From NCBI GenBank assembly GCA_002685255.1, contig NYWU01000004.1, positions 52,600-116,599 on the forward strand: 64,000 bases of DNA. Direction: 5' to 3'. Position numbers and translations under genes: made by a program. The DNA comes from Idiomarinaceae bacterium. Its GTDB lineage: Bacteria > Pseudomonadota > Gammaproteobacteria > Enterobacterales > Alteromonadaceae. The notes beneath the pieces are model-generated. The model saw only the letters and a program-made list of their open reading frames with translations, made no database searches and had not been told where the DNA came from. This document shows positions 33,321 through 49,656 of this stretch, in pieces (position 1 is the stretch's first letter; each line of letters opens with the position of its first letter).

Positions 33321-34928
33321 TCAGCGGCGTGTTAAGAATTCAACTAATGGCGCAAAACGCATGGGCGTTGCCTCGAGAAACCCCTGCATCACATCAGTTT
33401 CAAGCTGCTGTACCATCGCTTTTTCGGCGACCGTCTCGACCCCTTCTGCAACGGTATTTAAGCCCAGTTCGTGCGCCATACCAATTATACCGCGCACGAT
33501 TGCCTGATTAGCATTATTCGCATCAATTCCTCGAATAAAGCTACGATCGAGCTTTACATCACTGATAGGCATTTGTGTTAGGTAACGTAAGTTAGAGAAA
33601 CCTGTACCAAAATCATCGAGCGCAATAGCTATCCCCATATCGGTGAGCTTATCGAGCGTAGCCACAGCGCTCTGCGCATTTCTCAACATCATTGACTCGG
33701 TAATCTCGAGCTTAATCTCTGAAGGCGTTATTTCAGTGTCGATAATCACTTTTTCCAGTTGCTCGACAAAATCACTGCGAGTGATATGAACCGTAGATAC
33801 GTTGACTGACATACGAGCACCTTTAGCAAGCAACGGCTTGAGCTGCTTCCAATCGCGAAATGCTTGCCGCATGATCCAGTAACTCAGCGGAATGACTTGG
33901 CCCGAGCTTTCCAAGATAGGAATAAATTCTGCGGGCGATAAGTTTTCAATGTCCGGATGACGCCAACGAATAAGGGCCTCTAAGCCACATACAGTATTCG
34001 ACGCTAAGCATATTTGCGGCTGATACACTAAATGAAACTGATCTTTGTCGATGCCTTTTTGCACCGAGTTCCGAATCGCCAACGCGCGGTTGAGCTCATC
34101 GTTAAAGGATTTATCAAACCATTGGAAGGTGTTTTTGCCCGCTCGCTTAGCCTCGAACATCGCAATATCGGCTTGCTGGATCATGACTTCCGCACGATTC
34201 ATACGCTCTTTGCAATACGTCACCCCGGCGCTGGCAGTAATATAGATATCGGTACTTTCGATTTTATAAGGACGCGCGATATCATCAAGAATCCTTTGCG
34301 TTACTATCGCTGCGTCTTGACGCGCTTCTAACCCCGTCAGGATCATTAAAAACTCATCGCCACTAAGACGAGTCAGCGTATCCGAGTTCCGTAATTGGTT
34401 GCGAATACGCCCCGCGACGACTTGCAGTAGCTTGTCGCCCATTTCATGACCTAAACTATCATTAATCGCTTTAAAGCCGTCTAAGTCTAAAAAGACAACC
34501 GCAGTGAGCGTTTTCTCGCAACTCTCCGATAAGCAGTGCCGCTGCAGGCGTTTAATAAATTGGGTGCGGTTAGGTAACCCAGTTAACGGGTCATGTTGCG
34601 ATAAAAATGGCAGATGCTCAGATTGGCTCAACTTCATGTTGAACGGGTGCAAGTAAATCAGATACTGTTGGCACTCATCATCGGTAACGCTGATGGCACA
34701 ATAGTAAACAGGCTGTCCACTGCGCTCATCCACCTGAAAAGAGCTCGATAGGAATTCCTTTTCGTCTGATGGCAACTGAATTGCCAAGTGCTGACCTAAA
34801 TGCGCATGGTCACCGAGTAATAGCTTGGCGCCCTGATTGGCATATGTGATTGCGCAATCGCGGTCAACAATGACAATCGCTATACGGCTTTTATCGAAGA
34901 TTTCATAACGCGCACAGGTATATTCCAT
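33321..34928 (-). CDS. PAS-GGDEF-EAL cyclic-di-GMP protein
   Basis: 535 residues: a PAS-like sensor (about 1-95), a GGDEF domain whose signature is SGDEF (189-193), and an EAL domain with EALIRW (317-322) and DDFGTGFSNLRYL. The EAL site looks complete, so c-di-GMP phosphodiesterase activity is likely. The first Gly of GGDEF is Ser, which may leave a GTP-binding regulatory domain or a weak cyclase. No membrane segment. It is 11 bases downstream of the kinase-like gene and so co-transcribed. Placed beside flagellar genes, a role in motility is plausible but inferred. Confidence 0.88.
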   Translation of the reverse strand: MEYTCARYEIFDKSRIAIVIVDRDCAITYANQGAKLLLGDHAHLGQHLAIQLPSDEKEFLSSSFQVDERSGQPVYYCAISVTDDECQQYLIYLHPFNMKLSQSEHLPFLSQHDPLTGLPNRTQFIKRLQRHCLSESCEKTLTAVVFLDLDGFKAINDSLGHEMGDKLLQVVAGRIRNQLRNSDTLTRLSGDEFLMILTGLEARQDAAIVTQRILDDIARPYKIESTDIYITASAGVTYCKERMNRAEVMIQQADIAMFEAKRAGKNTFQWFDKSFNDELNRALAIRNSVQKGIDKDQFHLVYQPQICLASNTVCGLEALIRWRHPDIENLSPAEFIPILESSGQVIPLSYWIMRQAFRDWKQLKPLLAKGARMSVNVSTVHITRSDFVEQLEKVIIDTEITPSEIKLEITESMMLRNAQSAVATLDKLTDMGIAIALDDFGTGFSNLRYLTQMPISDVKLDRSFIRGIDANNANQAIVRGIIGMAHELGLNTVAEGVETVAEKAMVQQLETDVMQGFLEATPMRFAPLVEFLTRR

Positions 34929-34939
34929 AGCCTAATCCT

Positions 34940-35944
34940 TTAGTTTCTAGCTCTGGTTCGCCAGGTGACTTCAATCCGTGTTCCGCGCTCACCCACCGGA
35001 AAAGCGCTAATAGCAGCTTGATGCCTGATCGCAATCAACGCACATTTAGCTAGTCCAATGCCGACGCCAGCCGTACTTAAATCATTACCCCGTTGAAAAG
35101 GCAGCATCGCTCTCTCGTCCAGTTCAGCATAAATGCCGATACCATTGTCTTCAACTATCAACCGACAATGGCCCATCTCCGTTACTTCAGTCACAACACT
35201 AATTTTGAGCGGTACACACGTATCACGAAACTTAATCGCATTTTCGACCAGTTCATACACTAGAGTCGTCGCTAACTTTGCGTCCACGAGCGCTGAATGC
35301 TGACAGTCATTGACGACTGAACCGCCAATACGCCTAAGCTCAAACGCGAACGCCTCTTCAGCGGACTCAATTAAGTTGCACCAACGAATATGTTGTAAAT
35401 TAAGTTTAGCATTGATCAACGAGAGCCACTCTAAGCCCTGTGTTATATAGACCCGTTGATTTTTTAAACACTCGGCTACAGAATCAGGCATCTGACCGTG
35501 GCTTTCTTCTAACACCTTTGTAATCGAATGCCGCGTTGGCTCTAACGCACGATCGGCTAAACGCTGTGTGAATACGCCGACTAAGCGACTCAACTCGTGC
35601 TCAACTGACGTTTGTTGATTATCACTCAAACTCAGCAGGTGATATTGCGCGACGCGATGTTGGTGTACATTAAGTGTCTTACCAGCTTGAATCGGGTGTT
35701 CGATTTCAAGTGAAGCGGTCTCACGGTCGAGGATCGATGTCAGTGGTTCGATAAGCCAACGCGGTTTCTGAGAAGAAGCCGTTTTAAACAGCGTATCGAA
35801 ATGCGTGTTATGCCATAAATAGTTTCGTTGCCGATCGAAACAAATAATCGCTAACTGAAGCGGCTCGTAGAGCCGTTGTATTGTATGCAGAGGAACGTCC
35901 ATGTTGGTTTTACCAAACCAACGCCTTGGACTCATACTTGCCAT
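34940..35944 (-). CDS. Soluble histidine-kinase-like ATPase
   Basis: 334 residues. A PAS-like N-terminus (about 20-105) is followed by helices and a HATPase_c domain with an N-box (YELVENAIKF, 230-239), G1 (VEDNGIGI, 264-271) and G2 (GVGIGLA, 293-299). The only candidate H-box is VEHELSRLVG around His116, which departs from known HisKA motifs, so autophosphorylation is uncertain. No membrane segment or receiver. Likely co-transcribed with the PAS-GGDEF-EAL gene; the two probably act in one signal path. Confidence 0.7.
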   Translation of the reverse strand: MASMSPRRWFGKTNMDVPLHTIQRLYEPLQLAIICFDRQRNYLWHNTHFDTLFKTASSQKPRWLIEPLTSILDRETASLEIEHPIQAGKTLNVHQHRVAQYHLLSLSDNQQTSVEHELSRLVGVFTQRLADRALEPTRHSITKVLEESHGQMPDSVAECLKNQRVYITQGLEWLSLINAKLNLQHIRWCNLIESAEEAFAFELRRIGGSVVNDCQHSALVDAKLATTLVYELVENAIKFRDTCVPLKISVVTEVTEMGHCRLIVEDNGIGIYAELDERAMLPFQRGNDLSTAGVGIGLAKCALIAIRHQAAISAFPVGERGTRIEVTWRTRARN

Positions 35945-36019
35945 CTCTCAATCCTTGAGCACATCTTTCGTAATCCATTACGTTAGAAGTATCACGCTTA
36001 CTAGCTGATTGACAAGCGT

Positions 36020-36805
36020 TTATTTGTCTTTAAACGGGAGCGCAAGTAGGGTCCAAAAAGGGGTATTGCGCTGCTCTTCGCGAAACTCACGCAAGCCAAT
36101 ATCGACGTTGTCGGAGCCCGCATGCGGTTGATCAGTGTAACTACCAAACAGCCAATCCCACCACACCACACTAAATCCATAGTTACTGTTAGTTTCACGC
36201 TTAACACTGCTATGGTGAATCCGATGCAGCTCTTGCGTGATCAACACTTTGCGAACGCCGGTCTCAAGCTTCGCAGGTAACTGCACGTTGCCATGATTAA
36301 ACAACGAGCAGGCGTTTAAAATGATCTCAAAAATTATCACAGCCGCTGCGGGGGCGCCTAACATCAGAATAGTTGCGGCTTTAATAGCTAAACTTAAAAT
36401 CATTTCGATTGGATGAAAACGCACGCCTGTGGTGACATCAAAGTCTGGGTCGGCATGATGAACGCGATGTAAACGCCATAACCAAGGCACTCGGTGGAAT
36501 AAACGGTGCTGCCAGTAAAGCGCCAGATCCAATGCAATCATACTGACCATCACGGCGAGCCATAGCGGCAACTCAAATTGATTAAAGACCCCCCAACCGT
36601 GTTCGGAGGCCCACAGGGCGATCCCCGTCAGCCCCAATGGAACAACTAAGCGCATTAACACGCTCGAGGTGACAATCAGGCCAAGATGACTGCGCCACCG
36701 ATGCCAACGATTGACCCGTCCGCTGCGCTTAGGGCGTTTCGCCTCCCACACGAGCATGAGTGCTAAAACCGCCACAAAAATGCTTAATCGAATCCATGCT
36801 TCCAT
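36020..36805 (-). CDS. Sterol desaturase/fatty acid hydroxylase family membrane protein
   Basis: 261 residues with three or four membrane segments in the first 160. The di-iron histidine clusters are all present: HRLFH (100-104), HRVHH (113-117), His171 in FNHGN and HRIHH (194-198). Such proteins hydroxylate or desaturate lipid chains or sterol-like and carotenoid substrates with O2. The substrate here is unknown. It begins four bases after the ynjF-like gene and is the last gene of the 36020-45857 cluster, which suggests a modified membrane lipid or a hydrophobic substrate. Confidence 0.85.
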   Translation of the reverse strand: MEAWIRLSIFVAVLALMLVWEAKRPKRSGRVNRWHRWRSHLGLIVTSSVLMRLVVPLGLTGIALWASEHGWGVFNQFELPLWLAVMVSMIALDLALYWQHRLFHRVPWLWRLHRVHHADPDFDVTTGVRFHPIEMILSLAIKAATILMLGAPAAAVIIFEIILNACSLFNHGNVQLPAKLETGVRKVLITQELHRIHHSSVKRETNSNYGFSVVWWDWLFGSYTDQPHAGSDNVDIGLREFREEQRNTPFWTLLALPFKDK

Positions 36806-36809
36806 TGCT

Positions 36810-37424
36810 TTACTCGTGTGCCTTTAACGTATTGAACCCCGCCCAAATACGGGTCGCCGTCGTCACCCAACACACCGCACCAAATAGCCAAGCGATGATG
36901 CCAAAATGCTGAGGCAGTAAACACAACAAAACAAAAACCGCAAAGGTTTCAAACCCCTCAGCGAGTCCGCCCATGTAATACATCGACTTGTTCGGATAGT
37001 GAGGGTTATCCAGCCCCCGTTTTGACGCCTGCACGGCAAAGGCTAAAAAGCTGGTGCCGGTGCCAACGAAAGACAACATTAAGAAGAGCCCAGGTAACAG
37101 ATGCTCGTGTGGACTATTTAAAATAAACCCAACCACCACCGCTTGATAGAAAATAAAGTCCAGTACGATATCTAAAAAGCCACCGGCATCGGTCGTTTGG
37201 GTGCGCCGAGCCACAGCTCCGTCTAGGCCGTCAGCAAGACGGTTCAACAAAACTGCCACAAGCGCCAGCTCAAACGCGCCCGCCATCAATAATGGTAGTG
37301 CGAGTACGCCGATAACAAAACCGACTAAAGTAATCTGATTAGCCGTCACAGCACGACGAACCAACAGACGCGCCGGCTTATCCAAAAGTCGCTGTAAAGG
37401 AGGTATGAGATAGCGATCAATCAT
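36810..37424 (-). CDS. ynjF: YnjF-like CDP-alcohol phosphatidyltransferase
   Basis: 204 residues, mostly membrane helices. The class motif D-x2-D-G-x2-A-R ... G-x3-D-x3-D is complete (Asp65, Asp68, Gly69, Ala72, Arg73, Gly81, Asp85, Asp89). The enzyme joins a CDP-activated lipid with an alcohol; E. coli YnjF is the closest known member by size and neighbours (ynjBCD). The alcohol acceptor is unknown. It overlaps the ATPase gene by eight bases. Confidence 0.8.
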   Translation of the reverse strand: MIDRYLIPPLQRLLDKPARLLVRRAVTANQITLVGFVIGVLALPLLMAGAFELALVAVLLNRLADGLDGAVARRTQTTDAGGFLDIVLDFIFYQAVVVGFILNSPHEHLLPGLFLMLSFVGTGTSFLAFAVQASKRGLDNPHYPNKSMYYMGGLAEGFETFAVFVLLCLLPQHFGIIAWLFGAVCWVTTATRIWAGFNTLKAHE

Positions 37425-38040
37425 AATAATACTGTTCTAAGTTCACGACTTTCCCCGGCGCATCAGCCGCATCGTGGGTGACTAAGATGGCGGGCATATT
37501 GGCGGCCATCAGTTTAGACCAGGTAAATTCACGTATGGTCGTCCTTAGTTTTACGTCGAGCGCTGAAAAGGGTTCATCCAGCAATAAACTTCGCGGCGCT
37601 GCCGCTAGGCTACGTAGCAATGCGATTCGAGCGCGCTGCCCACCGCTGAGCTGGTCAGGATAGGCTTTTGCGTAATGCGCTAAATCGACTGACTGCAATT
37701 GTTGCGCGACCCAGTCGTGTCGGTGCGCATGCCTTTTGGGTAGCGCAAAAAGCAAATTCTGAGCAACTGTCATATGAGGAAATAAATCGGCCTGCTGTGT
37801 GACCAAGCCAATTTGCCGCCGTTCAATAGGCCACTGCCCCAAGTCATTACCATCCAACGTCAGTTGGCCCTCGATAGTTACACCCGGCTGATCGACACCC
37901 AGTATCCACTGCAATAAGCTGGATTTACCTATACCACTCGCCCCAGTTAATGTGAGGACGTCTCCCGCCGCTACAAAGAGCTTAGGAATCACCAATTGAT
38001 GGTGTTTAAACACCATAGTGAGATGATTAATTTCGAGCAC
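37417..38040 (-). CDS. ynjD: YnjD-like ABC transporter ATP-binding protein
   Basis: 207 residues from a GTG at 38040 preceded by GGGGGA. A longer frame to 38106 adds residues unlike an ABC protein and runs far into the permease gene. Walker A GASGIGKSS (33-41), signature LSGGQ (131-135) and Walker B LLLDEP (152-157) are intact. It drives import through the YnjC-like permease. The protein is shorter than polyamine or iron ATPases, lacking their C-terminal regulatory domain, as YnjD does. Confidence 0.82.
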   Translation of the reverse strand: MLEINHLTMVFKHHQLVIPKLFVAAGDVLTLTGASGIGKSSLLQWILGVDQPGVTIEGQLTLDGNDLGQWPIERRQIGLVTQQADLFPHMTVAQNLLFALPKRHAHRHDWVAQQLQSVDLAHYAKAYPDQLSGGQRARIALLRSLAAAPRSLLLDEPFSALDVKLRTTIREFTWSKLMAANMPAILVTHDAADAPGKVVNLEQYYYD

Positions 38041-39625
38041 GTGTCCCCCATAAAACCAACATAAATACGCTCCAAACACTCGCCCATTGTGCCAGCGCAT
38101 AGACACTACCGAGCCGCCAGTCCCCTCCTGATGCTATGCTGACTGCTTCAGTCGTCAATGTGGGGTGTGTCACCGGTGCCAGCCATTGCGTGGGCAAATA
38201 CTGAGCGACGCTGATTGAAAACGCCATCGCCCAAGCTAACGCTAATGGCCGCTTTAACATCGGGACTAACACTTTAAACCATGCCGCCCAAGGACCATAG
38301 CCCAAACTGCGCGCTTGCCAAAGCCACCGTCTGGGATAAGCGTGGTAAGCGCCGTGCAATGTTAAGTACGCATAAGGAAAACAAAACACAGTATGAGACC
38401 ATAACAACCCAATAAATCCGTTATCGGGTCCGATGGTCTGCTGCCAGCTCAAAACCAAGACTAACTGTGGAATCATTAGCATGGTTAACCATCCACCATT
38501 CAGTGTGTGTTGCTGGCTTTGAGCTTGCACTTCCAGTAACGCGATGGCTGACAGCCAAGCCAGCGTGGCGCTGAGCGCGGCAAGTATCCAGGTGTTGTAT
38601 AGCAAAGGTGCAATATAAGGCCACTCCGTTAACCAGCGCGACCATTGCCAGCCTTGCGGCCATAGTGACGGATAAAACCACGACTGCTGACCTGACTGAA
38701 GTAACAAGCTGATAAAAATACTCATCGCTAACAGGGCCCAAAACCAAGGCGTAGTCGCACGTTTGACGCTGCTTTTAGCAGCGCATGCGCGCTTTCCCGT
38801 CAAAGCAAGGTACCCGAGCCATCGTTGCAATACCCACTCTAGCCCGCGCAGTAACAGTACACTGACGAAAGCGATAACGACTAAAAACAACGAGCCCCAA
38901 CTGACCAGTCCCTGCGTATTATTAGTGAACTGCCAATTAAGTTGATAAACCTCATGAGCAAGGAGTGCAGGCGCATTGGGTCCGACAAGTAACGGAATAT
39001 CGACCACAGAAACCGTGTAAATGGCAATGATGTAAAGCGGCAAACGAATTCGTTTAAGTAACGCCGGTACGACAATTAACCACCAAAATCTGCGGTGACT
39101 ATAGCCTAACGCCTGTGCTTGCTGTTGCCAGGGTTGAATCGGCATCTGTTGAACATTCGCCTGCGCCATTAATAATAAAAATGGCAACTCCTTGAGTACG
39201 AGCACAACCATCAGGGTAAAGGTACTCTTACCGCTGAGCGCACTGGACTGTATGGGTCCTTGCCACATGGGTAATAACCCATCAACCAAGCGTACTAGCC
39301 AACCCGAAGGACTCACCAGCCACAACAAGCCAATGGCAAAGGCGACGTGGGGCACGGCAATAAAACTAGCCCAAGTCGCATTAAGGTGCCTCCCCCGTGC
39401 GCCAGCAAGAGCCGCAAGCAGCACTAAGGCGCTGGTGGTTAATGTCACCGATAGAGTTAGCCATGCACTATTACCTAACGCGCTGAGCGCGCCAACCAAC
39501 GATCCTCCAAACGGTGTCGTTGAATTGTGCCAAACGACAACCCCAAGCGGTATTATCAGCCACAACAGTGCTATCGCCGTGCGCACCAAACGGTGCATCG
39601 CTAACGGGGGTAACGTTGTTGCCAT
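38027..39625 (-). CDS. ynjC: YnjC-like fused ABC permease
   Basis: 532 residues with about twelve membrane segments in two related halves, the fused permease form of YnjC and ThiP. Each half carries a binding-protein-dependent loop; the second reads LGYGPWAAWFKVLVPMLKRP. An alternative ATG at 39598 would leave a two-base gap to the binding protein instead of a 25-base overlap. The start is not settled by a ribosome site. The substrate is not shown by sequence. Confidence 0.82.
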   Translation of the reverse strand: MATTLPPLAMHRLVRTAIALLWLIIPLGVVVWHNSTTPFGGSLVGALSALGNSAWLTLSVTLTTSALVLLAALAGARGRHLNATWASFIAVPHVAFAIGLLWLVSPSGWLVRLVDGLLPMWQGPIQSSALSGKSTFTLMVVLVLKELPFLLLMAQANVQQMPIQPWQQQAQALGYSHRRFWWLIVVPALLKRIRLPLYIIAIYTVSVVDIPLLVGPNAPALLAHEVYQLNWQFTNNTQGLVSWGSLFLVVIAFVSVLLLRGLEWVLQRWLGYLALTGKRACAAKSSVKRATTPWFWALLAMSIFISLLLQSGQQSWFYPSLWPQGWQWSRWLTEWPYIAPLLYNTWILAALSATLAWLSAIALLEVQAQSQQHTLNGGWLTMLMIPQLVLVLSWQQTIGPDNGFIGLLWSHTVFCFPYAYLTLHGAYHAYPRRWLWQARSLGYGPWAAWFKVLVPMLKRPLALAWAMAFSISVAQYLPTQWLAPVTHPTLTTEAVSIASGGDWRLGSVYALAQWASVWSVFMLVLWGTRARN

Positions 39626-40686
39626 TGTTGCTCAAGGTAGGCTTGCCAGCTGACATGAAACTCAGCCGCGACTGGCAGCATCGCCGGCATATCGGGTAGC
39701 GTGATATCCAATACCGTCGGATCGCCCCAGCCCGATAAGTCGGCTTTTTTACGTTGCGCAGCCTCAGATAAGAAGAACTTAACAACCTGCTTCGCGGCTT
39801 GAGGATGACCACTGCTATTTGGAACCGCTAAATAATGACTATTACTAATCGCTGCCGAACCCAAGGTAACTCGTTTGGTGTCCGGCGGCACTCGTCCCTG
39901 ATTGACGAGCGTTTTAACCTCATTAGGATTAAACGACGGCGCGACATCAAGTTGCTTGTTAGCAAACCAATTAAGTTGCTGAGCAGCGCTGGATGGGTAG
40001 TTCTCGCCCCCCTGCCATAATAACGGCTGTAACTCATCTAAATAGGCCCATAACGGCGCTGTTAGTTTTTCAGCGTCGACCGCATCGACTGGTTTGCGAA
40101 ATGCCTCATCTTGCTCAGAAAGCGACAGCAATAATGATTTTAAAAACGTGGTGCCATGAAACTCCGGCGGTTTCGGATACGCAATACGACCGGGATGCTC
40201 GGCAGCATACTCCAGTAATTCAGCTGCACTGATGTGATCAGCTGCAAAGCATGTTGCACAGGTTAACAGGTAAAACTGCCCAACGCCCCACGGTACTTCA
40301 AGGTCAGCGACCGCTTCACCAAAGTCGTTTTGCCAACTCAGTTGATCATTCAATCTATCTTTAATATTCAGTTCGGTGAGTATCGACATCAAGCGGTCAG
40401 CCTCTTTCAACGCATGAAAGTTCTCGCCATTAATCCATATTAAATCGGCGTTGCTCTGACCATCAACCAGTTGCTTAACCACCTCAGCGATATCAGCCAC
40501 CTTCACGTGTTGTAACTGAATACCTTGCGGTCGCAGTTCCTTGGCGGCCCAGCGAATGTAATCATTAACGGCGGGATTACCGCCCCACGCATAAAAATAA
40601 ACGGGCGTCGGCTTACCTTGTGCCGAACTGTTTGTCGGAAAGCCCATTATTGATATCGCGGTCAGTAGTAAAAACACATATTTCAT
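39601..40686 (-). CDS. ynjB: YnjB-like periplasmic substrate-binding protein
   Basis: 361 residues from the ATG at 40686, which overlaps the oxidoreductase stop (ATGA). A signal peptide ends near SSAQ (22). The mature protein is a type II solute-binding fold of the YnjB family with IWINGENF (83-90). Cys143 and Cys146 form a CxxC in LTCATCF, an unusual feature in a periplasmic binding protein that could be a disulfide or a metal ligand. It delivers an unknown solute to YnjC/YnjD. Confidence 0.82.
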   Translation of the reverse strand: MKYVFLLLTAISIMGFPTNSSAQGKPTPVYFYAWGGNPAVNDYIRWAAKELRPQGIQLQHVKVADIAEVVKQLVDGQSNADLIWINGENFHALKEADRLMSILTELNIKDRLNDQLSWQNDFGEAVADLEVPWGVGQFYLLTCATCFAADHISAAELLEYAAEHPGRIAYPKPPEFHGTTFLKSLLLSLSEQDEAFRKPVDAVDAEKLTAPLWAYLDELQPLLWQGGENYPSSAAQQLNWFANKQLDVAPSFNPNEVKTLVNQGRVPPDTKRVTLGSAAISNSHYLAVPNSSGHPQAAKQVVKFFLSEAAQRKKADLSGWGDPTVLDITLPDMPAMLPVAAEFHVSWQAYLEQQWQQRYPR

Positions 40687-42824
40687 GAACGTAACCATCG
40701 GTGTAGTTTCTCAACCCACTGTAACAGTTTTTCGGGCGCATGCGCGCGCTTCCACTCGCCCGCTGCATACTTGTTCGCCTCAGCCAACGTGGGGTAACTA
40801 TGAATGGTTCCAAGAATTTTATTCAGTCCGATACCATGCTTCATTGCTAAGACAAACTCGGCCAGTAACTCCCCTGCCTGCGGACCGACAATATTAACCC
40901 CTAAGATCGTGTCTTTACCCGGCTCAGTCAGCACTTTTACACGTCCGTTGGCATTGCCATCGGCTATGGCGCGATCCAGCTCGGCAATGTCATAGCATGT
41001 GGTTTCATAATCAACCTGCTGTGCCTTTGCTTGCTGTTCTGTCAAACCCACATTGGCGACTTGCGGTGAGGTATAGGTAACCCAGGGGATCACCGAGTAA
41101 TCAACACGAAAGCGTTTGAAACGACCAAACAACGCATTCACCGTGGCATACCACGCTTGGTGTGAAGCAACGTGAGTAAACTGATACGGGCCGGCAACAT
41201 CACCACAGGCATAAATATTCGGCAGGCTGGTTTGCATAAACTCATCGACCTGTATGGTTTTACCCTGGTCAATGCCCAGTTCTTTTAAGCCAAAGCCTTC
41301 CAGATTCGCCTGTCTGCCTAGCGCCAACAGCACCCGATCGGCGTGCAATGACTGTTCTCCTTGCTCACTTTCGACCGTGAGCTCAACGCCCTGCTCGGTT
41401 TGGCTAAAGGCTTTCGCCTGGGTGCCCAAATGCAACGTAACGCCATCATCTTGAAGCGCGCGTGCAACATAAGTCGACGTATCCGGGTCTTCGTTCGTCA
41501 ATAACCGCTCACTCATCTCGACCAGATGTACCTCACTGCCCAGTCTTTGAAAGGCTTGTGCCATTTCGCAACCAATCGGTCCACCGCCTAAAATCAATAA
41601 GCGTTTAGGTAACTCGCGGAGCTGCCACAGGTTATCTGATGTCAGGTAGTCAACTTCATTGATGCCCGGTAAGTTCGGCACGAGCGGCCGCGCGCCCGTC
41701 GCCACTACGATATGTTTGGTAGTTAAGCGACGCGACTCGCCGTCTTGCTTGAGTTCCACTTCCCACGGCGATTTGATGGTCGCTTCACCGAGCTCTACAT
41801 TAACACCCAAGCCTTGGTAGCGCTCGACCGAGTCATGCGGCTCAATACGTTGTATCACTTGCTGTACTCGCGCAAGCACTTGCTGAAAGTCCACAGATAC
41901 CGAGTCAACTTTAATACCAAGCTGCTCGCTGTGGCGCATGTGATGCACTTGATTAGCCACGTGCAATAACGCTTTTGAAGGCACACATCCGGTATTAAGG
42001 CAGTCACCCCCCATTTTGTCGCGTTCGATTAAGGTCACTTTGGCTTTCACTGTTGCCGCTATGTAAGCACTGACTAAGCCCGCTGAGCCTGCACCAATGA
42101 CGATAAGGTTATTGTCGTAGTGTTGAGGGCGGGTGAAACCTTTAAACGCCCGGCGACGCTTGATAGCTGTAAGTAACCACTTGGCGATCAGAGGGAAGAT
42201 ACCCAACAACACAAACGCGCCAATGAGATCGGCCGAGACCACATCGCCCACTTGTTCAATTTCTGCGAGCTGAGTACCTGCGTTAACATAAACAACGGTA
42301 CCCAACAACATGCCGACTTGGCTCACCCAGTAGAATGTCCATGTTCTAATCTGTGTAAGACCTAAAGCCAGATTAATCACAAAAAACGGAAAAATGGGTA
42401 CCAGCCGTAAACTCAACAGATAAAAGGCGCCGTCCCGCTTTACGCCGCGATTGATCGCCTCGAGCCGCTGACCAAACTTACTTTGCACCCAGTCTTTTAA
42501 TAAAAAGCGCGCACTTAAAAAGGCCAGCAAAGCACCGACCGAGCTAGCAAAACTGGCTAGTAGCAACCCCCAGCCGAGTCCAAAAATGGCACCGGCACCT
42601 AAGGTTAGGATCGTGGCACCTGGAATCGATAACGCAGTGACCAAAACATAGGCGATGAAGTAGATAGCAAAAGTCAGTAACGGTTCCGTCTCAAACCAGC
42701 CATTAACACGCGCTTGCTGCGCTTTTAGCGTATCAAGATTGAGATACTGCGTAACATCGAACATCACCGCAGCGACAATGGCCGCGATAATCACCAGCGC
42801 CAGCAGAATTTTTTTTACAGACAC
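40683..42824 (-). CDS. VTT (TVP38/DedA-like) membrane domain fused to FAD disulfide oxidoreductase
   Basis: 713 residues. Residues 1-225 hold five to six membrane segments with the VTT core (GAGAIFGLGWGLLLASFASS and LSLRLVPIFPFFVINLALG). Residues 238-713 are a class I pyridine nucleotide-disulfide oxidoreductase with FAD loop VIGAGSAGL, redox pair Cys275/Cys280 in GGDCLNTGCVPSK, NAD(P) loop LGGGPIGCEM and the C-terminal HSYPTLAE base motif. It resembles mercuric reductase and lipoamide dehydrogenase but lacks the C-terminal mercury Cys pair. The disulfide substrate is unknown. The gene is 11 bases after a TonB receptor and overlaps ynjB. Confidence 0.85.
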   Translation of the reverse strand: MSVKKILLALVIIAAIVAAVMFDVTQYLNLDTLKAQQARVNGWFETEPLLTFAIYFIAYVLVTALSIPGATILTLGAGAIFGLGWGLLLASFASSVGALLAFLSARFLLKDWVQSKFGQRLEAINRGVKRDGAFYLLSLRLVPIFPFFVINLALGLTQIRTWTFYWVSQVGMLLGTVVYVNAGTQLAEIEQVGDVVSADLIGAFVLLGIFPLIAKWLLTAIKRRRAFKGFTRPQHYDNNLIVIGAGSAGLVSAYIAATVKAKVTLIERDKMGGDCLNTGCVPSKALLHVANQVHHMRHSEQLGIKVDSVSVDFQQVLARVQQVIQRIEPHDSVERYQGLGVNVELGEATIKSPWEVELKQDGESRRLTTKHIVVATGARPLVPNLPGINEVDYLTSDNLWQLRELPKRLLILGGGPIGCEMAQAFQRLGSEVHLVEMSERLLTNEDPDTSTYVARALQDDGVTLHLGTQAKAFSQTEQGVELTVESEQGEQSLHADRVLLALGRQANLEGFGLKELGIDQGKTIQVDEFMQTSLPNIYACGDVAGPYQFTHVASHQAWYATVNALFGRFKRFRVDYSVIPWVTYTSPQVANVGLTEQQAKAQQVDYETTCYDIAELDRAIADGNANGRVKVLTEPGKDTILGVNIVGPQAGELLAEFVLAMKHGIGLNKILGTIHSYPTLAEANKYAAGEWKRAHAPEKLLQWVEKLHRWLRS

Positions 42825-42835
42825 AACAGCTCCTT

Positions 42836-45136
42836 CTAAAAGCGGTAATCAACAGTCAGCTGCGCGTGGCGCGGAAGTGATGGAAAGGCGAGTGTGGAGC
42901 CGAAATAGCCGCCCTCAAACACCGGTGACCAATTTTCTTCATCGGTTGCGTTGAACACATCTAAACGCGCACTCAGTTGAGCAGTAATTTGATAAGTTGC
43001 ATTTAAGTTCAACATATACTGATCACGTATCATCACAGTCTGCAGGTAATCAAGCGGATAGCTCTGGGTATAACTCAAATCACCACCCACCGACCACTGA
43101 GGCGTTAGCTGCCAACCTGCGACGGCAGAAGCTTGCACCTCAGGAACGCCTTGCAAACGTTGGTTCGAGGCTGCAAAGGCCGCAAAGTTAGGCGCCCCCA
43201 CACCGGTACCATTGATAATGTCCGGTCGTGAATTATCAAACAAGTCCGCGACTTGACGCGTATCTTGAAACGCAGCCGAATTATCATAGTGCGCATCTAA
43301 ATAGCTGGCAGCCAGTGTCGCCCAAAAGCCGTTTTCATTACGATAGTTCCACTGCGCCTCAACACCCTGTGTGGCAATACCGCTATTAGAACCGTCGCGG
43401 TTGCGCAAGCTACGTGTTTGGTCAAATACCACCACATCGGTATACCAACGACTGTTGACCGGCGCAATTTTGATACCAATCTCATACAGTGTATTTTCGG
43501 TGGCGAAATTCTGTGAATCAATGACTTGATTCGCATTTAATACCGTACCGCCCGCCATTGAATTCGAAGTCGAATCGCTTTCGTACGCTGATGCGTAAAC
43601 CATCACCGCCGTTGAAAGTTGATACTGAGACGACAGGCTAACCGCACTCAACCAGTCATTGTAACTGTCCTCAGCCGCTTCAAATCCAGCGGGTGGCAGC
43701 GGATCCTTCGCGGTCACATCGTAGTAATCAAGCCGTGCCCCTGCGGTGACTTGCCAACGCTCAGTCAGTGCCAGCTCATGCTGTGCGAACAGACCCCACT
43801 GTTGGCTTAGCGAGTCGGTGGTATCCGATAAGATATAATCGCCCACGCCGTCGCCATCGTTGTCATAGTTGGTGCCTGGTGACACAAACAAGCCGGGGCG
43901 CAACTCCACTAATTGGGCTTGTTGCGCTGCCGTTAGCGGAATGCGGCGATTTGAAATAGGACCGGTGAGGTCAGTCGGTAAATCGGCTTCTGTACTGAAC
44001 TGGCTGTAACCCAACACATCATTGATGCGTAAGTTGATGCCTACAATAGAGCGATCGTTAATATGCAATTCAGCACGGTTTTCGAATGTATGTGCGCCAT
44101 CAATAATCTCAACAAAGCTGTTTTGGTTAATCCCCTCACGCTCTAAATACTGATAATACGTGCGGTTTACAAAAATAAGTGCGTCAGACCATTGCTGCTG
44201 AAACGTCGAATGAACCAACGTCGTTTTGGCATTATTGATATCCGCTGGATCGGTCAGTACGCGACTGCGATCAATTTCCACTTGGCCCGTCGGGCTGACA
44301 ACCGCGTAAGCACTTGGCACGGTAGAACCATTAGGCTGTACACCTTGTCCGGTAATATAAAGGTTGTCATCGATGAGCGCTTGGGTGGGCCGGTTGATAC
44401 CCGCGTTATCGGTCCACTCGACATCATAGTACTCAAGCCCGATATCCCACTCAGTGCGGCTGTTCGGCGTAAAGCGATAGGCGACAAATACGTCATCACT
44501 GCGAGTCGAGGTATAATCGTAAAAGCTATCATGGTCGACAAACTCAGCGCTAACTCGTAACCCATGCTTGTCACGCTTGAGCACTTCATTATGATCGAGT
44601 TGCAGACGGTATTGACTCCACTGACCCCATTCACCGCGAACCCGTGAGCGCTCTTTATCTGTCAGTGCCTTTTTCGGCAATAAATTAACAAAGCCACCGA
44701 CGCGCTGAGTCGTACCCAGCATCACCGGTGGCGCTCCTTTCACTACGGCAATCCCTTCGATACTATTAAACGACATTGGCACACCCAAGCCGTTGTTACC
44801 GGCTTGACGCCGCATACCCGCCTCGAATAACTCACCGAGTTGCCCACGCATACTCGGGAGTGAAGGATTGCCAAAACCCGCCGCAGCAAAACTGTTGGGG
44901 GCAAACCGAGCGATATCATGTAGATCATTAATCGCCGCTTGATCCATCAGCGAACGCGATATCATGGTGGCAGAGCGCGGGATTTCCTGTAATGCATCGG
45001 ACAAGCCAAACACCCCTTCGACCGGTTCTTCACTCGGCAATACCAGAGTCTCCCCTTCGCCGGTGACCTCGATAATTTCAATAGGTTCTTGTGCCATTAC
45101 AGACACCGGAAGCAATGCCAACCAAGCGTACTTCAT
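42836..45136 (-). CDS. TonB-dependent receptor, siderophore-receptor type
   Basis: 766 residues with a signal peptide (MKYAWLALLPVSVMAQ), a TonB box region (EIIEVTG), a plug with SLMDQAAINDLHDIARFAPN and GIAVVKGAPPVMLGTTQRVGGFVNLLPKK, and a 22-strand barrel ending in the aromatic LTVDYRF. The plug pattern is that of siderophore receptors. Being first before the oxidoreductase and YnjBCD genes, it should bring their substrate across the outer membrane. No siderophore synthesis gene is nearby. Confidence 0.88.
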   Translation of the reverse strand: MKYAWLALLPVSVMAQEPIEIIEVTGEGETLVLPSEEPVEGVFGLSDALQEIPRSATMISRSLMDQAAINDLHDIARFAPNSFAAAGFGNPSLPSMRGQLGELFEAGMRRQAGNNGLGVPMSFNSIEGIAVVKGAPPVMLGTTQRVGGFVNLLPKKALTDKERSRVRGEWGQWSQYRLQLDHNEVLKRDKHGLRVSAEFVDHDSFYDYTSTRSDDVFVAYRFTPNSRTEWDIGLEYYDVEWTDNAGINRPTQALIDDNLYITGQGVQPNGSTVPSAYAVVSPTGQVEIDRSRVLTDPADINNAKTTLVHSTFQQQWSDALIFVNRTYYQYLEREGINQNSFVEIIDGAHTFENRAELHINDRSIVGINLRINDVLGYSQFSTEADLPTDLTGPISNRRIPLTAAQQAQLVELRPGLFVSPGTNYDNDGDGVGDYILSDTTDSLSQQWGLFAQHELALTERWQVTAGARLDYYDVTAKDPLPPAGFEAAEDSYNDWLSAVSLSSQYQLSTAVMVYASAYESDSTSNSMAGGTVLNANQVIDSQNFATENTLYEIGIKIAPVNSRWYTDVVVFDQTRSLRNRDGSNSGIATQGVEAQWNYRNENGFWATLAASYLDAHYDNSAAFQDTRQVADLFDNSRPDIINGTGVGAPNFAAFAASNQRLQGVPEVQASAVAGWQLTPQWSVGGDLSYTQSYPLDYLQTVMIRDQYMLNLNATYQITAQLSARLDVFNATDEENWSPVFEGGYFGSTLAFPSLPRHAQLTVDYRF

Positions 45137-45149
45137 CGGGAAATCCTTT

Positions 45150-45857
45150 TTATAGCTGACTTAAGAAAGAGCGAATACGTTCCGCATTTTTACCCACATC
45201 GCTGCGACCCACGCGTGACTTACTACGAATGTCGAGCAGCGTCTCATCACTTTGTGCCTGAATACGAATCACCACATCGTCTTTAAAACCAAACCAGGTT
45301 GTTGTGGCGGTTGCCTCAATCCGGTGTTGTTCATCCGACGTATCGATAATTTCCCAGCCCATATTCTTAGCCACGGTCAATGCTTGTTGATAGAGCTCAT
45401 CCGGTGATTTGGGTGAGACATAAGTGGTAATGTCGGGGTACGCTTCTTTCTGTTGCTTTGCCGTTTCCTCACCCGCGTACTCCACAGGATTAGGCGCGTT
45501 AGCACGCAACGGTGCAATGGCCACAAATTCGGGCGGGTTAACCGTATCCGTTGAGATATCATGAATGGGCGGCACCGAGGTTGCCGTTTGGTACTGCGTA
45601 TAAGGTAAATAAAACGCGATAAATGAAGCAATAATAGCTAAAACGCTGAGCCCTGCCCGAGCGCCTTTAGGTCGGCGCACGAATAACGCAATAATGTTTA
45701 ATATACCTGCACCGATGGCAAGATAAACAGCCCAACGCAACAACGTGAAGGCACCACCTAAAGTGAGCCATTCGAGTTGATAAAGCGGGCCGGACAAGCC
45801 GATTAGAACAAGAGAGAGTAAACCAAGAAAAATTAAAATGGAGTGCAACGCTTTCAT
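45150..45857 (-). CDS. DUF1499 membrane protein
   Basis: 235 residues with three N-terminal membrane segments (about 5-105) and a C-terminal DUF1499 domain (SPDELYQQALTVAKNMGWEI, VIRIQAQSDETLLDIRSKSR). Function unknown for the family. It ends 13 bases before the TonB receptor start, so it is probably the first gene of this transcript. Confidence 0.8.
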   Translation of the reverse strand: MKALHSILIFLGLLSLVLIGLSGPLYQLEWLTLGGAFTLLRWAVYLAIGAGILNIIALFVRRPKGARAGLSVLAIIASFIAFYLPYTQYQTATSVPPIHDISTDTVNPPEFVAIAPLRANAPNPVEYAGEETAKQQKEAYPDITTYVSPKSPDELYQQALTVAKNMGWEIIDTSDEQHRIEATATTTWFGFKDDVVIRIQAQSDETLLDIRSKSRVGRSDVGKNAERIRSFLSQL

Positions 45858-45921
45858 AGTCTGTCCTGAACAAATTATTGTTTTATAAGATATTAGACTA
45901 CGAAAGCGCGGTTAAGCCAGA

Positions 45922-46488
45922 TCAACGAATAATGGGTTGCGTATTGGGTTCGTCCAAACGCTCAATAACAGAGCTTGGAATGTAAACAGAGCCTGTGCTC
46001 ACCACATGTTTATTGTTAATGTCCACCAAGCGCGCGCTGGCCAACACACCATCACGGTAGTGGCTATAGGTACCTACAACAACATGGGTAATGGGTAGGA
46101 TCTCGTCAATCTCAAGGTAGTCGCGCGTTAAAGCGAAATCCCCTTGCGGTGTGACACGGATAAATTCCGTCGTTTTGTAGTCGATAATCGGAACCTGACG
46201 ATAAGCAAGTTCTCCACGTAATTGCTCAGACATCACTTGCGCGAACGGTGTCGCATTATTATAGGACGACTGGACCCCGACTAAGTCGGTAACGGCCACG
46301 TGCGCCTTTGCTAAATCAACGCGACTGTTGTTTACCAATTGCTCCGCCAGTTGCACACTAAATGTATTGGTTGGCGCAGGCAAGGCGGTCGATGTTGTTT
46401 CAGTCAGCTCAGCTTTCGGCTCGGGCTTCGGCAACACCGTACAAGCGCTCATTGTCAGTGCTGTCATGACGATTAACGTAAAACGCAT
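45922..46488 (-). CDS. FlgO-family lipoprotein (second of pair)
   Basis: 188 residues with a lipobox TMSAC (Cys16). The rest matches the FlgO domain: LAEQLVNNSRVDLAKAHVAV, then MSEQLRGELAYRQVPIID and ILPITHVVVGTYS. Vibrio FlgO is an outer membrane lipoprotein needed for full flagellar function. It starts nine bases after the first FlgO-like gene and shares its sigma-28 promoter. Confidence 0.75.
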   Translation of the reverse strand: MRFTLIVMTALTMSACTVLPKPEPKAELTETTSTALPAPTNTFSVQLAEQLVNNSRVDLAKAHVAVTDLVGVQSSYNNATPFAQVMSEQLRGELAYRQVPIIDYKTTEFIRVTPQGDFALTRDYLEIDEILPITHVVVGTYSHYRDGVLASARLVDINNKHVVSTGSVYIPSSVIERLDEPNTQPIIR

Positions 46489-46497
46489 AACTCTCTC

Positions 46498-47049
46498 CTA
46501 ACGACTTCTCTGCAAATGCCCATTAACTATCTCGGCACCCTTGTTAGTCCAGTACAAATGCTTAGGCACATAGTGATTTGCCGCGGCCAGCACCGATTGC
46601 GAACGACGGTCGAGCACACGCACACTGAGCATCACACCGTCATCTTCTCGACTCATGGTTCCCACTAATACCCAGTCTAAGTTCGGATTAAGGTTTAACT
46701 GCTGTTTATCATTGGTCAGCATCGTCGCACCCGCGGATGTCAGCGTCACACCATTCTGAGCGCGAAAGTCGATAAGCTTGACCTTGCGTTCGGCAAGATG
46801 ACTATACAACGCTTCGCTCAATTCATGGCTGACTGAGTAAAGCGCGTTTTCAGGTTGAGGCAACGCCAGCGTATCCGACATCACCCAACGGGTAATGCCT
46901 AACTGAGCATGTTCATGACGGGCAGGATGGTCATTTAACTGTTGCACCAGTTGCTGAGACAAGCGATCAGCAATTTCATCATAGGGACTAATTGAGTGTG
47001 CCTGTGCCGGCAGAATCATTAAGCCGACTAAAATAGCCAATACACGCAT
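46498..47049 (-). CDS. FlgO-family secreted protein (first of pair)
   Basis: 183 residues with a cleavable signal peptide (MRVLAILVGLMILPAQAHS) but no lipobox Cys. The FlgO-like core is ADRLSQQLVQQLNDH, LSEALYSHLAERKVKLIDFR and LDWVLVGTMSREDDG. It differs from its neighbour in lacking a lipid anchor. It is read from a sigma-28 promoter at 47081-47107, so it belongs to the flagellar regulon although far from flgP and flgT. Confidence 0.72.
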   Translation of the reverse strand: MRVLAILVGLMILPAQAHSISPYDEIADRLSQQLVQQLNDHPARHEHAQLGITRWVMSDTLALPQPENALYSVSHELSEALYSHLAERKVKLIDFRAQNGVTLTSAGATMLTNDKQQLNLNPNLDWVLVGTMSREDDGVMLSVRVLDRRSQSVLAAANHYVPKHLYWTNKGAEIVNGHLQRSR

Positions 47050-47080
47050 AGGACATCTCGTTATTAAGAGTAATGGTATC

Positions 47081-47107
47081 CTATCGGCTTGAGATGAAAA
47101 AAATTTA
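47081..47107 (-). promoter_or_regulatory. Sigma-28 promoter of the FlgO-like pair
   Basis: Minus strand TAAATTTT-N11-GCCGATAG, with exact spacing and one change in the -10. It sits 31 bases before the ATG, just after the LytTR stop. Confidence 0.78.
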
Positions 47108-47112
47108 GGAGT

Positions 47113-47541
47113 TTAGCTCGCTGAAGAAATTCCCAGTCGTTTAAACAAACTGTCGCGGTAAGATTGACCAATACGCACTTCATCACCGTTACTAAGCACC
47201 AATAAAGTCAGCCTTCCTAACTCACTGGTGATCTCTCTTACATGATTTAAGTTAACAATGACGCTGCGGTGAACACGATGAAAATCCGCGGCACTGAGCG
47301 TGTCGGCTACATTTTTCATGGTGTCGCGGTGAAGCATACGCTCTTGCGGTGTATGAACCTCAACGTAATTGGCAGCCCCTTTGATACAAATAACATCACT
47401 TAAGGGGACAAAAACGATTTTACCGACCATCCTTACGGGAAATACGTTATCCATTGCACGCCAGCATCCATCAGGCTCATAAAGGTTTAGCACATGATGG
47501 TATGGCACCCAGCTTAAGATGGGATATTTTGTGACTAACAA
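47113..47541 (-). CDS. LytTR DNA-binding domain protein
   Basis: The LytTR domain fills the C-terminal 105 residues (VPLSDVICIKGAANYVEVHT, HRVHRSVIVNLNHVREI, LSNGDEVRIGQSYRDSLFKR). The start is uncertain: the listed 142-residue form begins at a TTG with no ribosome site, and an ATG at 47454 would give a 113-residue protein that is almost only the DNA-binding domain. No receiver domain or membrane sensor is attached, so its input is unknown. Targets may include the neighbouring peptidase or receptors; that is inference. Confidence 0.75.
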   Translation of the reverse strand: MLVTKYPILSWVPYHHVLNLYEPDGCWRAMDNVFPVRMVGKIVFVPLSDVICIKGAANYVEVHTPQERMLHRDTMKNVADTLSAADFHRVHRSVIVNLNHVREITSELGRLTLLVLSNGDEVRIGQSYRDSLFKRLGISSAS

Positions 47542-47646
47542 GACAGTATCACCATTAAAGACCTCTTCAACAGGGATTAAACCAACTCAATATAGCAATA
47601 TCAGTGAGTCTGCCGAGAAGCCGATGCCGTCTTGTCTGTAAGAAAA

Positions 47647-47670
47647 AACAGCCAGCAAATGCTGGCTGTT
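47647..47670 (-). terminator. Terminator of the S9 peptidase gene
   Basis: AACAGCCAGCA and TGCTGGCTGTT pair in an 11-bp stem with a two-base centre, followed on the minus strand by six T. Confidence 0.88.
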
Positions 47671-47691
47671 GTATGGAACGAGAAAAGCGGA

Positions 47692-49656
47692 TTATTCGTT
47701 GATATATTTATCAAGGAATACGAGCATTTTGTTCCAACGTTCGATGTTATTTTCTGGCTTATAGAAACCATGGCCCTCGCCTGGCTTAAGCAGCCATTCG
47801 TAGGTATGGTTGCGCTTCTCAAGCGCGTCACGCAAACGGAACGCATGTTCTTTCGGCACACGCACATCGCGTCCACCTTGGATAATGAACACCGGCACTT
47901 CGAGTTTGTCAACTTGATGCACAGGTGACTGAGATTCACGCTCTGCTTTATCGGTTGGCAACACTTTACTCAAGTAGTTAACACCCGCTTTAGCTTCAGA
48001 GATATCGCCCTCTTGGAACATCAAGTTGAGGTCATATACACCGACAAACCCAATGGTACATTTGTACTTTTTGGGTTCACGGATAACGCTCATCAGCGCA
48101 GCATAGCCACCATACGAGGCGCCATAAACACACATCCGCTCCGGATCTGCGATACCTTTCTCGATAAGATAATCGACACTGTCGGTCATATCATCGATCA
48201 TCGTTGTTCCCCACTTTTTATAACCTTTAGTGAGAAATTCATTGCCGTAACCACCTGAACCTCGGAAATTTGGCTGTAATACTGCATAACCATGCTCAGC
48301 CAATACTTTCGCGTCAGTATCTAGGTTCGTCAGTGAATCACGAATACCGTGAGGTCCGCCATGAGGTAAAAGAATCAACGGCAAGTCTTTCGCCTCTTTA
48401 CCCGGTGGCAATGTCAGCAAGCCGTGAATTTTCAAGCCATCACGCGCCTGATAGGTGATAATCTGCGTTTCCGGCATGGCCTGTTTGTCTAACCAAGGAC
48501 GCGCCTGAGTGATTATCGACAGCGAACCTTTTTCTGCGTCATATAGATAAAATTCAGCTGGATGATTAGCAGACGAAACGGTAATCACCATTTTAGAGTT
48601 ATCGAGCGTTGCCGAACGAATTCCGACTGAACGGTTTGGAAATGCTCGAATAATGCTCTGCGTAATATTAGCGAACTGCTTATCTTTTACGCCTTGGAAG
48701 AATACCGCATCAATGGCATCGTACTCGTAAGCACCACCAATTAACTCGTTATTACGTCCGTTTTTCAAACTGAAAATCGGCGCGATATCGGTTTTAGGAT
48801 GCTCAGCAATGACTGTGCTTTCATGCGTGTTCAGGTCATAGCTCACAATCGCGGAGGTATCGCTTGAGCGAGTCGACGTACCGATCACCGTATGTCCATC
48901 GGGCATGATCTCCATCGGAGTGAAGTGGCCTTCCTCTTCGAAGTACTTGTTAGCGACTTCCCACTCCTCGTTTGCACCGTCACGAGTCATCATAACCAAC
49001 TGGTTACGATTATCCGGGTCGGTACCTACAGCAATACGTGATACACCCTCATCATCGAGTAGGACACTGACATTCGTACTTTTATATCGGCGCAGCGGAA
49101 TACGGCCTTCAGCGCGCTTACGTCCCGAATCAAGCTTCATTCGGTACAGGTCGATGTAGGGTTCGTTAGACATCATACGAACACTATAAATCATCACCTG
49201 ATTAGGCTCATCAGGTAAAAAGTCGATAATCTGAGCAAAACGATAGTCACCATCATCAGAACGCGGTCCAGTCAATATCTTCTGGTTACCACCGTCGGCA
49301 TCCATCGCAAAGATTTCGCCCGTTGGAATAGGCGCATCGAGCGAGCCAACTTCTCGTGCCATCGACATAACAAGACGATCATCATTGGCCCAATTAAAGC
49401 TAGCGACAGACTCGTTACCTTGTCCCTCTGTCATCGACAGTACTTTTTTATCGTTGATATCAAGCACTGTCAGACGAACCTTACCTTCATCCGTACGTGA
49501 GGTAGCGGCTAGATAATTGCCCTCTGGTGAAATTTTGATATCCAAAAACTGCGAAGGCTTTGCGTACTTGGTAAGCACGTCCTCTTTTACTTGTGCCATC
49601 ACTGAAACCGGCAAAGCCACAGCCGCAGCGACAACAAAAGAAATGAGCTTTTTCAT
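47692..49656 (-). CDS. Secreted S9 family (prolyl oligopeptidase-type) serine peptidase
   Basis: 654 residues with a signal peptide (MKKLISFVVAAAVALPVSVMAQ). An N-terminal beta-propeller (about 30-390) with DPP4/acylaminoacyl-peptidase-like repeats precedes an alpha/beta hydrolase domain with catalytic Ser514 (GASYGGYAA), Asp597 (GGRDVRV) and His629 (GEGHGF). It should cut short peptides in the periplasm. It is a single gene with its own terminator, next to four TonB receptors, which fits peptide scavenging. Confidence 0.92.
   Translation of the reverse strand: MKKLISFVVAAAVALPVSVMAQVKEDVLTKYAKPSQFLDIKISPEGNYLAATSRTDEGKVRLTVLDINDKKVLSMTEGQGNESVASFNWANDDRLVMSMAREVGSLDAPIPTGEIFAMDADGGNQKILTGPRSDDGDYRFAQIIDFLPDEPNQVMIYSVRMMSNEPYIDLYRMKLDSGRKRAEGRIPLRRYKSTNVSVLLDDEGVSRIAVGTDPDNRNQLVMMTRDGANEEWEVANKYFEEEGHFTPMEIMPDGHTVIGTSTRSSDTSAIVSYDLNTHESTVIAEHPKTDIAPIFSLKNGRNNELIGGAYEYDAIDAVFFQGVKDKQFANITQSIIRAFPNRSVGIRSATLDNSKMVITVSSANHPAEFYLYDAEKGSLSIITQARPWLDKQAMPETQIITYQARDGLKIHGLLTLPPGKEAKDLPLILLPHGGPHGIRDSLTNLDTDAKVLAEHGYAVLQPNFRGSGGYGNEFLTKGYKKWGTTMIDDMTDSVDYLIEKGIADPERMCVYGASYGGYAALMSVIREPKKYKCTIGFVGVYDLNLMFQEGDISEAKAGVNYLSKVLPTDKAERESQSPVHQVDKLEVPVFIIQGGRDVRVPKEHAFRLRDALEKRNHTYEWLLKPGEGHGFYKPENNIERWNKMLVFLDKYINE

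Follow-up and report, generated by a model that had tools for sequence, protein, structure and literature searches.

Which task could join an outer-membrane receptor, an importer and several membrane enzymes in one compact row of genes? The question is raised by a window of 64,000 nucleotides from contig NYWU01000004.1 of an Idiomarinaceae bacterium (genome of 2.77 Mb in 46 contigs). Here eight minus-strand genes, from position 45857 down to 36020, encode in this order a DUF1499 protein, a TonB-dependent receptor, a membrane-fused flavin adenine dinucleotide (FAD) oxidoreductase called VTT-FAD below, YnjB, YnjC, YnjD, YnjF and a di-iron hydroxylase. Comparison with other genomes shows that these genes form a conserved and co-inherited set, even where they are unlinked. 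We tentatively propose, at a probability of about one-third, that the cassette is an import-and-lipid pathway in which a small compound, with an arsenosugar or a close relative as the likeliest candidate, would cross both membranes and be joined to cytidine diphosphate (CDP)-diacylglycerol as a lipid head group. The source organism can be called Idiomarina-like because the nearest named homologues of its receptor, with about 72% identity, are from Idiomarina.

The original prediction treated the eight genes as a single system, a view that a scrambled order in relatives would have contradicted. The order receptor, VTT-FAD, YnjB, YnjC, YnjD, YnjF, hydroxylase is kept in all 16 same-genus loci, in one of which (L046) the hydroxylase sits on the opposite strand. 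(G and L numbers are our handles for genomes and loci.) Because it recurs throughout these loci, the order is more than chance. The remaining gene fared less well. DUF1499 lies within the operon in only 3 of the 16 loci and elsewhere is apart or on the opposite strand, so that the seven-gene order stands while DUF1499 is the loosest member. In 5 of the 16 loci (L035, L037, L038, L042, L044) two small genes separate the receptor from VTT-FAD; the one pair scanned (L035:7153-7684) matches a PhdYefM antitoxin and a ParE toxin. In some same-genus loci, an AraC/cupin-type regulator, AhpD and other small genes adjoin the receptor promoter (L034:2926-4548, L167:12085-13081).

The gene set recurs in other genera too, in varying composition. 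Elsewhere in the family, six loci (L063, L065-L069) have a DUF547 gene between VTT-FAD and YnjB, and the order in Marinimicrobium and Gilvimarinus is VTT-FAD, DUF547, receptor, YnjB. VTT-FAD, YnjBCDF and the hydroxylase occur in two Psychromonas loci (L097, L098) with no receptor close by. In several loci of Aeromonas, Photobacterium and Enterovibrio, VTT-FAD accompanies YnjBCD and YnjF, and in most Vibrio loci YnjBCDF stands alone. Because member sets vary in this way, we regard the cassette as modular, with YnjBCDF as its core. The neighbourhood list of named loci leaves out 6 of 80, in which the caller of open reading frames (ORFs) picked no YnjB.

Co-inheritance was analysed in 98 genomes of the order, including that of the window, out of 100 requested, and in 185 genomes of the class, out of 200 requested; all p-values given here and below count genomes as independent and ignore kinship. 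YnjB is present in 38 of the 98 genomes. YnjF accompanies it in 38/38, against 1/60 of the others, and this single case (G012) is a fragment covering residues 63-201; counted by genus, YnjF occurs in 18/18 with YnjB and 0/53 without. VTT-FAD was found in 36/38 against 4/60 (the G080 and G095 matches span the FAD part only), the hydroxylase in 32/38 against 4/60 at E 1e-50 (32 against 6 at 1e-25), the receptor in 25/38 against 0/60 (25 of 98 overall) and a DUF1499 homologue in 25/38 against 1/60 (26 of 98 overall). For YnjF, VTT-FAD, hydroxylase and receptor, Fisher p ranges from 4e-14 to 2e-26.

The association does not depend on adjacency. YnjF is distant from YnjB in 5 of the 38 genomes, either far apart on the chromosome (G066, G090) or on separate contigs (G069, G083, G093); in the fragmented genome G091 the two are on separate small contigs. 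The hydroxylase lies away from YnjB in six genomes. In all four Pseudidiomarina genomes the receptor and VTT-FAD are paired at a second locus of their own, away from YnjBCDF; AhpD and a DoxX-like gene adjoin this pair in two of the four. Of the 19 same-genus genomes, two lack YnjB. One of them, G012, carries a decayed cassette copy (L174, G012:C13, 9132-9741), in which a YnjF fragment of 122 residues adjoins a hydroxylase fragment of 82 residues. In the class sample YnjB and YnjF occur in seven genomes each: six have both, one has YnjB alone and one YnjF alone. Across the genera sampled in the order, the YnjB importer type, familiar from E. coli K-12, is inseparable from the CDP-alcohol transferase. 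A pyridoxamine-phosphate-oxidase-like gene was seen between YnjF and the hydroxylase in G083 (L170:7688-8344).

Genes of the cassette in the window, with the evidence for each assignment
Gene product	Position	Strand	Evidence
DUF1499 membrane protein	45150..45857	-	PF07386 92.6 bits; first gene, peripheral member
TonB-dependent outer-membrane receptor	42836..45136	-	PF00593 78.1 bits, PF07715 (Plug) 24.6
VTT-FAD: VTT membrane domain fused to FAD/NAD pyridine-nucleotide-disulfide oxidoreductase, CxxxxC pair	40683..42824	-	PF09335 81 bits, PF07992/PF02852
YnjB periplasmic substrate-binding protein	39601..40698	-	SBP_bac_1/8; NCBIfam NF008633 350.7 bits, cut-off 203
YnjC permease, 532 aa	38027..39625	-	position; 27-93% identity to YnjC of fetched loci
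YnjD ATPase	37417..38106, likely GTG start 38040	-	PF00005 (ABC_tran) 100.7 bits; junction
YnjF CDP-alcohol phosphatidyltransferase	36810..37424	-	PF01066 (CDP-OH_P_transf) 47.8 bits
Membrane di-iron hydroxylase (FA_hydroxylase family)	36020..36805	-	PF04116 107.7 bits

ORF positions and Pfam/NCBIfam scans agree on these eight genes and families, as first read from the sequence. YnjC is without a Pfam match, and NCBIfam gives only permease matches below cut-off (PotC/ModB). The predicted tight junctions were also reproduced, with the second Met as start of YnjB and GTG as start of YnjD: VTT-FAD and YnjB share an ATGA (16 bases of overlap for the longest ORF), YnjB and YnjC overlap by 25 bases, YnjC and YnjD by 14 (80 with the longest ORF) and YnjD and YnjF by 8. 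The other cassette junctions are gaps of 4, 11 and 13 bases, and 64 bases precede DUF1499. The observation of the cassette is thereby confirmed, and the interpretation attached to it is supported in part. Promoter- and terminator-like sites across 34000-48000 are no commoner than in shuffled sequence and so do not point to a single transcript. Two FlgO-family genes lie upstream on the same strand. Downstream of the hydroxylase, after a gap of 75 bases and on the same strand, a gene for a HATPase (histidine kinase-like) protein and one read by eye as GGDEF/EAL occupy 33321-35944; sensor-like genes are found again downstream of the cassette in several same-genus loci.

What do the individual proteins say about the substrate? 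The AlphaFold2 model of YnjB (predicted local distance difference test, pLDDT, 92.6) has a solute-binding fold. Its fold neighbours bind gamma-aminobutyric acid (GABA), iron (FbpA-type), thiamine and, in many cases, sugars; they also include stm0429 (4r6y), which we take to be an aminoethylphosphonate binder. Nine Trp residues of YnjB are near-invariant.

YnjF carries the CDP-alcohol signature D-D-G-A-R-G-D-D of the PIP/AIP synthases. The signature, with the catalytic D65, D68, D85 and D89, is kept in 34/34 homologues, and a further Gly column in 32. Arg192 aligns with Arg195 of MtPgsA1, in a weakly aligned stretch. YnjF differs from these enzymes in the acceptor site, as judged by residues given in passages of PMC6506517 and PMC4634129: Thr160 (matched via DIPPS 4mnd) and Phe90 replace the phosphate-binding Arg155 and Arg94, and only one of the three PIP synthase residues touching the acceptor phosphate is kept. 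Because of these two replacements, the acceptor is probably not inositol phosphate. The PIP synthase family models also score far below cut-off (NF040950 58.8 against 180, NF045883 45.6 against 170). Lys135 and Lys146 could still contact a phosphate; with one of the three residues kept, the site would suit an acceptor that lacks a phosphate, for instance a glycosylglycerol. In the hydroxylase the His clusters are intact, as had been proposed, with ten His conserved in 23/23 homologues. Its score for the ornithine lipid hydroxylase OlsE is far below the cut-off (NF052566 96.6 against 475).

VTT-FAD has the CxxxxC pair and the fold of mercuric reductase (MerA) and lipoamide dehydrogenase. The original prediction of an intact Cys275/Cys280 pair held up: both residues, together with Y677 and E682, are invariant in an alignment of 26 homologues. 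At the proton-relay position, Tyr677 occupies the place of the catalytic His of lipoamide dehydrogenase and matches the Tyr of MerA. Glu436, present in 25/26, is read as a marker for the reduced cofactor NADH. The protein differs from both enzymes in its N-terminal VTT membrane domain. It passes the dihydrolipoyl dehydrogenase model TIGR01350 (427.7, cut-off 408.8); nevertheless, the catalytic His before Pro-Thr is a Tyr in 26/26. Automatic lipoamide dehydrogenase names for such proteins may therefore be misleading. The match to MerA also falls short: TIGR02053 gives 398.9, below the cut-off of 454.45, and the C-terminal vicinal Cys pair, a feature of MerA, is missing: 0/26 homologues have a Cys in the last 30 residues. 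In a passage of PMC10127716, PF07992 and PF02852 are the commonest fusion partners of COG0398 VTT proteins.

The evidence pointing to arsenic comes from gene neighbourhoods outside the window. Among the 62 class genomes with VTT-FAD, the surroundings were read in 20, of which 19 were usable (no ORF was picked in one). Four of these stretches hold ArsS-type radical SAM genes and two others ArsM-like methyltransferases, the one scanned being below its family cut-off; AhpD/DoxX-like genes accompany VTT-FAD and the ArsM-like gene in L198. ArsS occurs in 49/62 genomes with VTT-FAD against 44/123 without (p 1.7e-8); in at least 8 of the 62 it lies no more than about 5 kb from VTT-FAD. The only ArsS genome among the 98 of the order, G082, has a single overlapping operon of arsS, TIGR04283 and TIGR04282 glycosyltransferases and, as last gene, a hydroxylase 48% identical to that of the window; all three arsenosugar-type models score above cut-off. 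G082 also has VTT-FAD, without YnjB and YnjF. An Allopusillimonas run consists of TIGR04282, a TIGR03169-like FAD protein, VTT-FAD, YnjB, YnjC and YnjD, with TIGR04283 convergent next door. In L206 and L214, VTT-FAD and ArsS have DUF3047 as a neighbour; in L076 it lies between hydroxylase and receptor. In G156, from another order, YnjC, YnjD, YnjF, separate VTT and FAD genes, the hydroxylase and a DUF3047-like gene are consecutive. The same hydroxylase (in G082), VTT-FAD or DUF3047 thus turns up in some arsenosugar-type clusters (ArsS TIGR04167, TIGR04282/TIGR04283). These clusters differ from the cassette, which adds importer, receptor and YnjF. Among VTT-FAD genomes of the class, ArsS is present in 0/5 with YnjB against 49/57 without (p 0.0002), a suggestive exclusion that fits some organisms making what others import. 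According to PMC11009773, both arsenosugars and their phospholipids are found widely among marine algae.

Conserved order, co-inheritance of unlinked genes and the links of three members to arsenosugar-type genes are the basis of the import-and-lipid pathway, for which gene links make an arsenosugar the best candidate substrate. Judged from their families, the receptor would draw on TonB energy to carry the compound through the outer membrane, and YnjB would bind it in the periplasm for transfer to the cytoplasm by YnjCD. YnjF, with its catalytic Asp residues in place, may then couple an alcohol on the compound to the phosphatidyl group of CDP-diacylglycerol, and the hydroxylase, with its metal-binding His, may hydroxylate the compound or the lipid. 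In the weakest step, VTT-FAD might keep the compound or its arsenic reduced at the membrane and perhaps flip the lipid. The guess of the original prediction, a hydrophobic or metal-bound compound, gains from the arsenic-sugar links, although these are indirect only.

Several observations weigh against this pathway. ArsS (TIGR04167) is absent from the window genome, and around the cassette a scan of ten proteins of the window gave no ars-type family. With ArsS in 93 of 185 class genomes, links to it come cheaply; in the order, with 1/98, it is too rare to show a maker/importer exclusion. For YnjB alone the exclusion is weak (1/7 against 92/178, p 0.057), and in G194 ArsS coexists with receptor and YnjB. 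Of the YnjB loci compared, a single one has arsenosugar-type glycosyltransferases, and none of nine further loci in which hydroxylase and YnjB are apart (L170, L171, L175, L222-L227) matched arsenosugar-type genes. 'Arsenosugar biosynthesis' is itself an NCBIfam label for ArsS-type families, a predicted product in these bacteria. VTT-FAD, whose role is a guess, occurs in 62 of the 185 class genomes, 57 of which have no YnjB, and is weakly associated with YnjB in this sample (p 0.043). Lastly, the receptor has mainly siderophore receptors as fold neighbours.

The same architecture, import followed by transfer to CDP-diacylglycerol, might serve a head group without arsenic, such as another glycoside, a polyol or an aminoalcohol, the ArsS links then coming from enzymes shared by two pathways. 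This is possible, if doubtful. The YnjB–YnjF coupling is independent of arsenic genes, the varied ligands of the YnjB fold neighbours would suit it, and E. coli has ynjBCD; of 14 named control genomes, a single one (Synechococcus elongatus) has ArsS. Against it, hydroxylase, VTT-FAD and YnjBCD each share an operon or cluster with arsenosugar-type genes in some genome. The set might also be no single pathway at all but co-inherited envelope genes with separate roles (importer with YnjF; receptor with VTT-FAD; hydroxylase), clustered for shared regulation. The Pseudidiomarina arrangement, VTT-FAD with hydroxylase but without YnjB in G028, and the frequency of VTT-FAD alone speak for such a division, which we nevertheless think unlikely, as the separated modules mostly remain within the same genomes.

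Metal or siderophore uptake is hinted at by the modelled fold of the receptor. Here a metal chelate would enter through the receptor, YnjBCD would import the metal, VTT-FAD would reduce it and the lipid enzymes would adapt the membrane. The receptor (42836-45136 in the window) has 63% mean column identity in 22 sequences across genera. (Its loops are nearly invariant across genera, with a DxDxDGxxD calcium-site-like motif at about residues 425-433.) For the receptor model (pLDDT 72), Foldseek gave Fiu, PiuA and PiuD as best matches (14-16% identity, TM 0.6-0.8); FpvA is a further neighbour, and PqqU, OprC and BtuB match too. The iron-binding FbpA-type neighbours of YnjB, the MerA-type Tyr of VTT-FAD and a bufferin maturase near VTT-FAD in L205 point the same way. 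Bufferins are a copper-linked type of ribosomally synthesized and post-translationally modified peptide; the maturase (NF050167, 381 bits against 310) is from one class genome (L205:9248-10926), with an ArsS-type gene further on. Against a metal, no convincing Fur-like box precedes the receptor genes: against the Fur consensus, the best sites in 30 upstream regions score 9-13/19, near the shuffled level, and only that of L036 (13/19) exceeds all its 50 shuffles. FbpA-type proteins bind ferric ion by an adjacent Tyr pair, and no Tyr-Tyr columns above 20% were found in 61 YnjB sequences. Moreover, VTT-FAD has no Cys near its C-terminus, and YnjB has its obligate partner in a lipid enzyme instead of a metal protein. 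We consider metal uptake distinctly improbable. Still less probable is detoxification of organoarsenicals, in which the genes would trap a compound and then lipidate or hydroxylate it to cut toxicity, not to feed. It draws on the same gene links as the arsenosugar import proposed here and on the MerA-like Tyr; a dedicated TonB receptor and ABC importer, which would bring the compound in, are odd for defence.

If import and lipid transfer is the task of the cassette, several unexplained families (YnjBCD, YnjF, VTT-FAD fusions, hydroxylase, DUF1499) become one testable pathway. If in addition the compound is an arsenosugar, there would be a genetic handle on the origin of arsenosugar phospholipids and on the recycling of algal arsenic by marine bacteria. 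A bolder and rather unlikely extension is a marine division of labour over arsenic: bacteria without ArsS would scavenge arsenosugars from algae and from ArsS bacteria via receptor and YnjBCD, and YnjF and hydroxylase would make hydroxylated arsenosugar phospholipids, so that YnjF would be an arsenolipid synthase and E. coli ynjBCD/ynjF a gut relative.

How does the cassette compare with its known relative? E. coli ynjBCDF had been described in the original prediction as an orphan importer plus phosphotransferase, which has to be corrected. E. coli ynjF presumably lies just downstream of ynjBCD-ynjE. In E. coli K-12 (NC_000913.3) the row reads ydjX, ydjY, ydjZ, ynjA, ynjB, ynjC, ynjD, ynjE; by family scan, YdjX and YdjZ belong to the VTT family and YnjA to the CMD/AhpD family. 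PMC3688515 gives ydjXYZ-ynjABCD as a single operon, activated by FNR and encoding predicted proteins, and PMC2731931 reports that BaeR overexpression weakly induces ynjA and ynjB, possibly indirectly. Our literature search found no function for YnjB, YnjC, YnjD or YnjF. Both groups combine YnjB (the cassette protein passes NF008633), YnjC and YnjD with a VTT protein. YdjY (ferredoxin-like) and YnjE (rhodanese) are not among the eight proteins of the cassette, the rest of the genome not having been searched, and a YnjA-like AhpD gene is near the cassette in some relatives only. In contrast to E. coli, the cassette has its VTT domain fused to an FAD oxidoreductase and adds a TonB receptor, a di-iron hydroxylase and DUF1499. 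Because ydjX, ydjZ and ynjA adjoin ynjBCD in E. coli, we regard the cassette as a fused, receptor-equipped and modular variant of the known, still unexplained E. coli ydj-ynj group.

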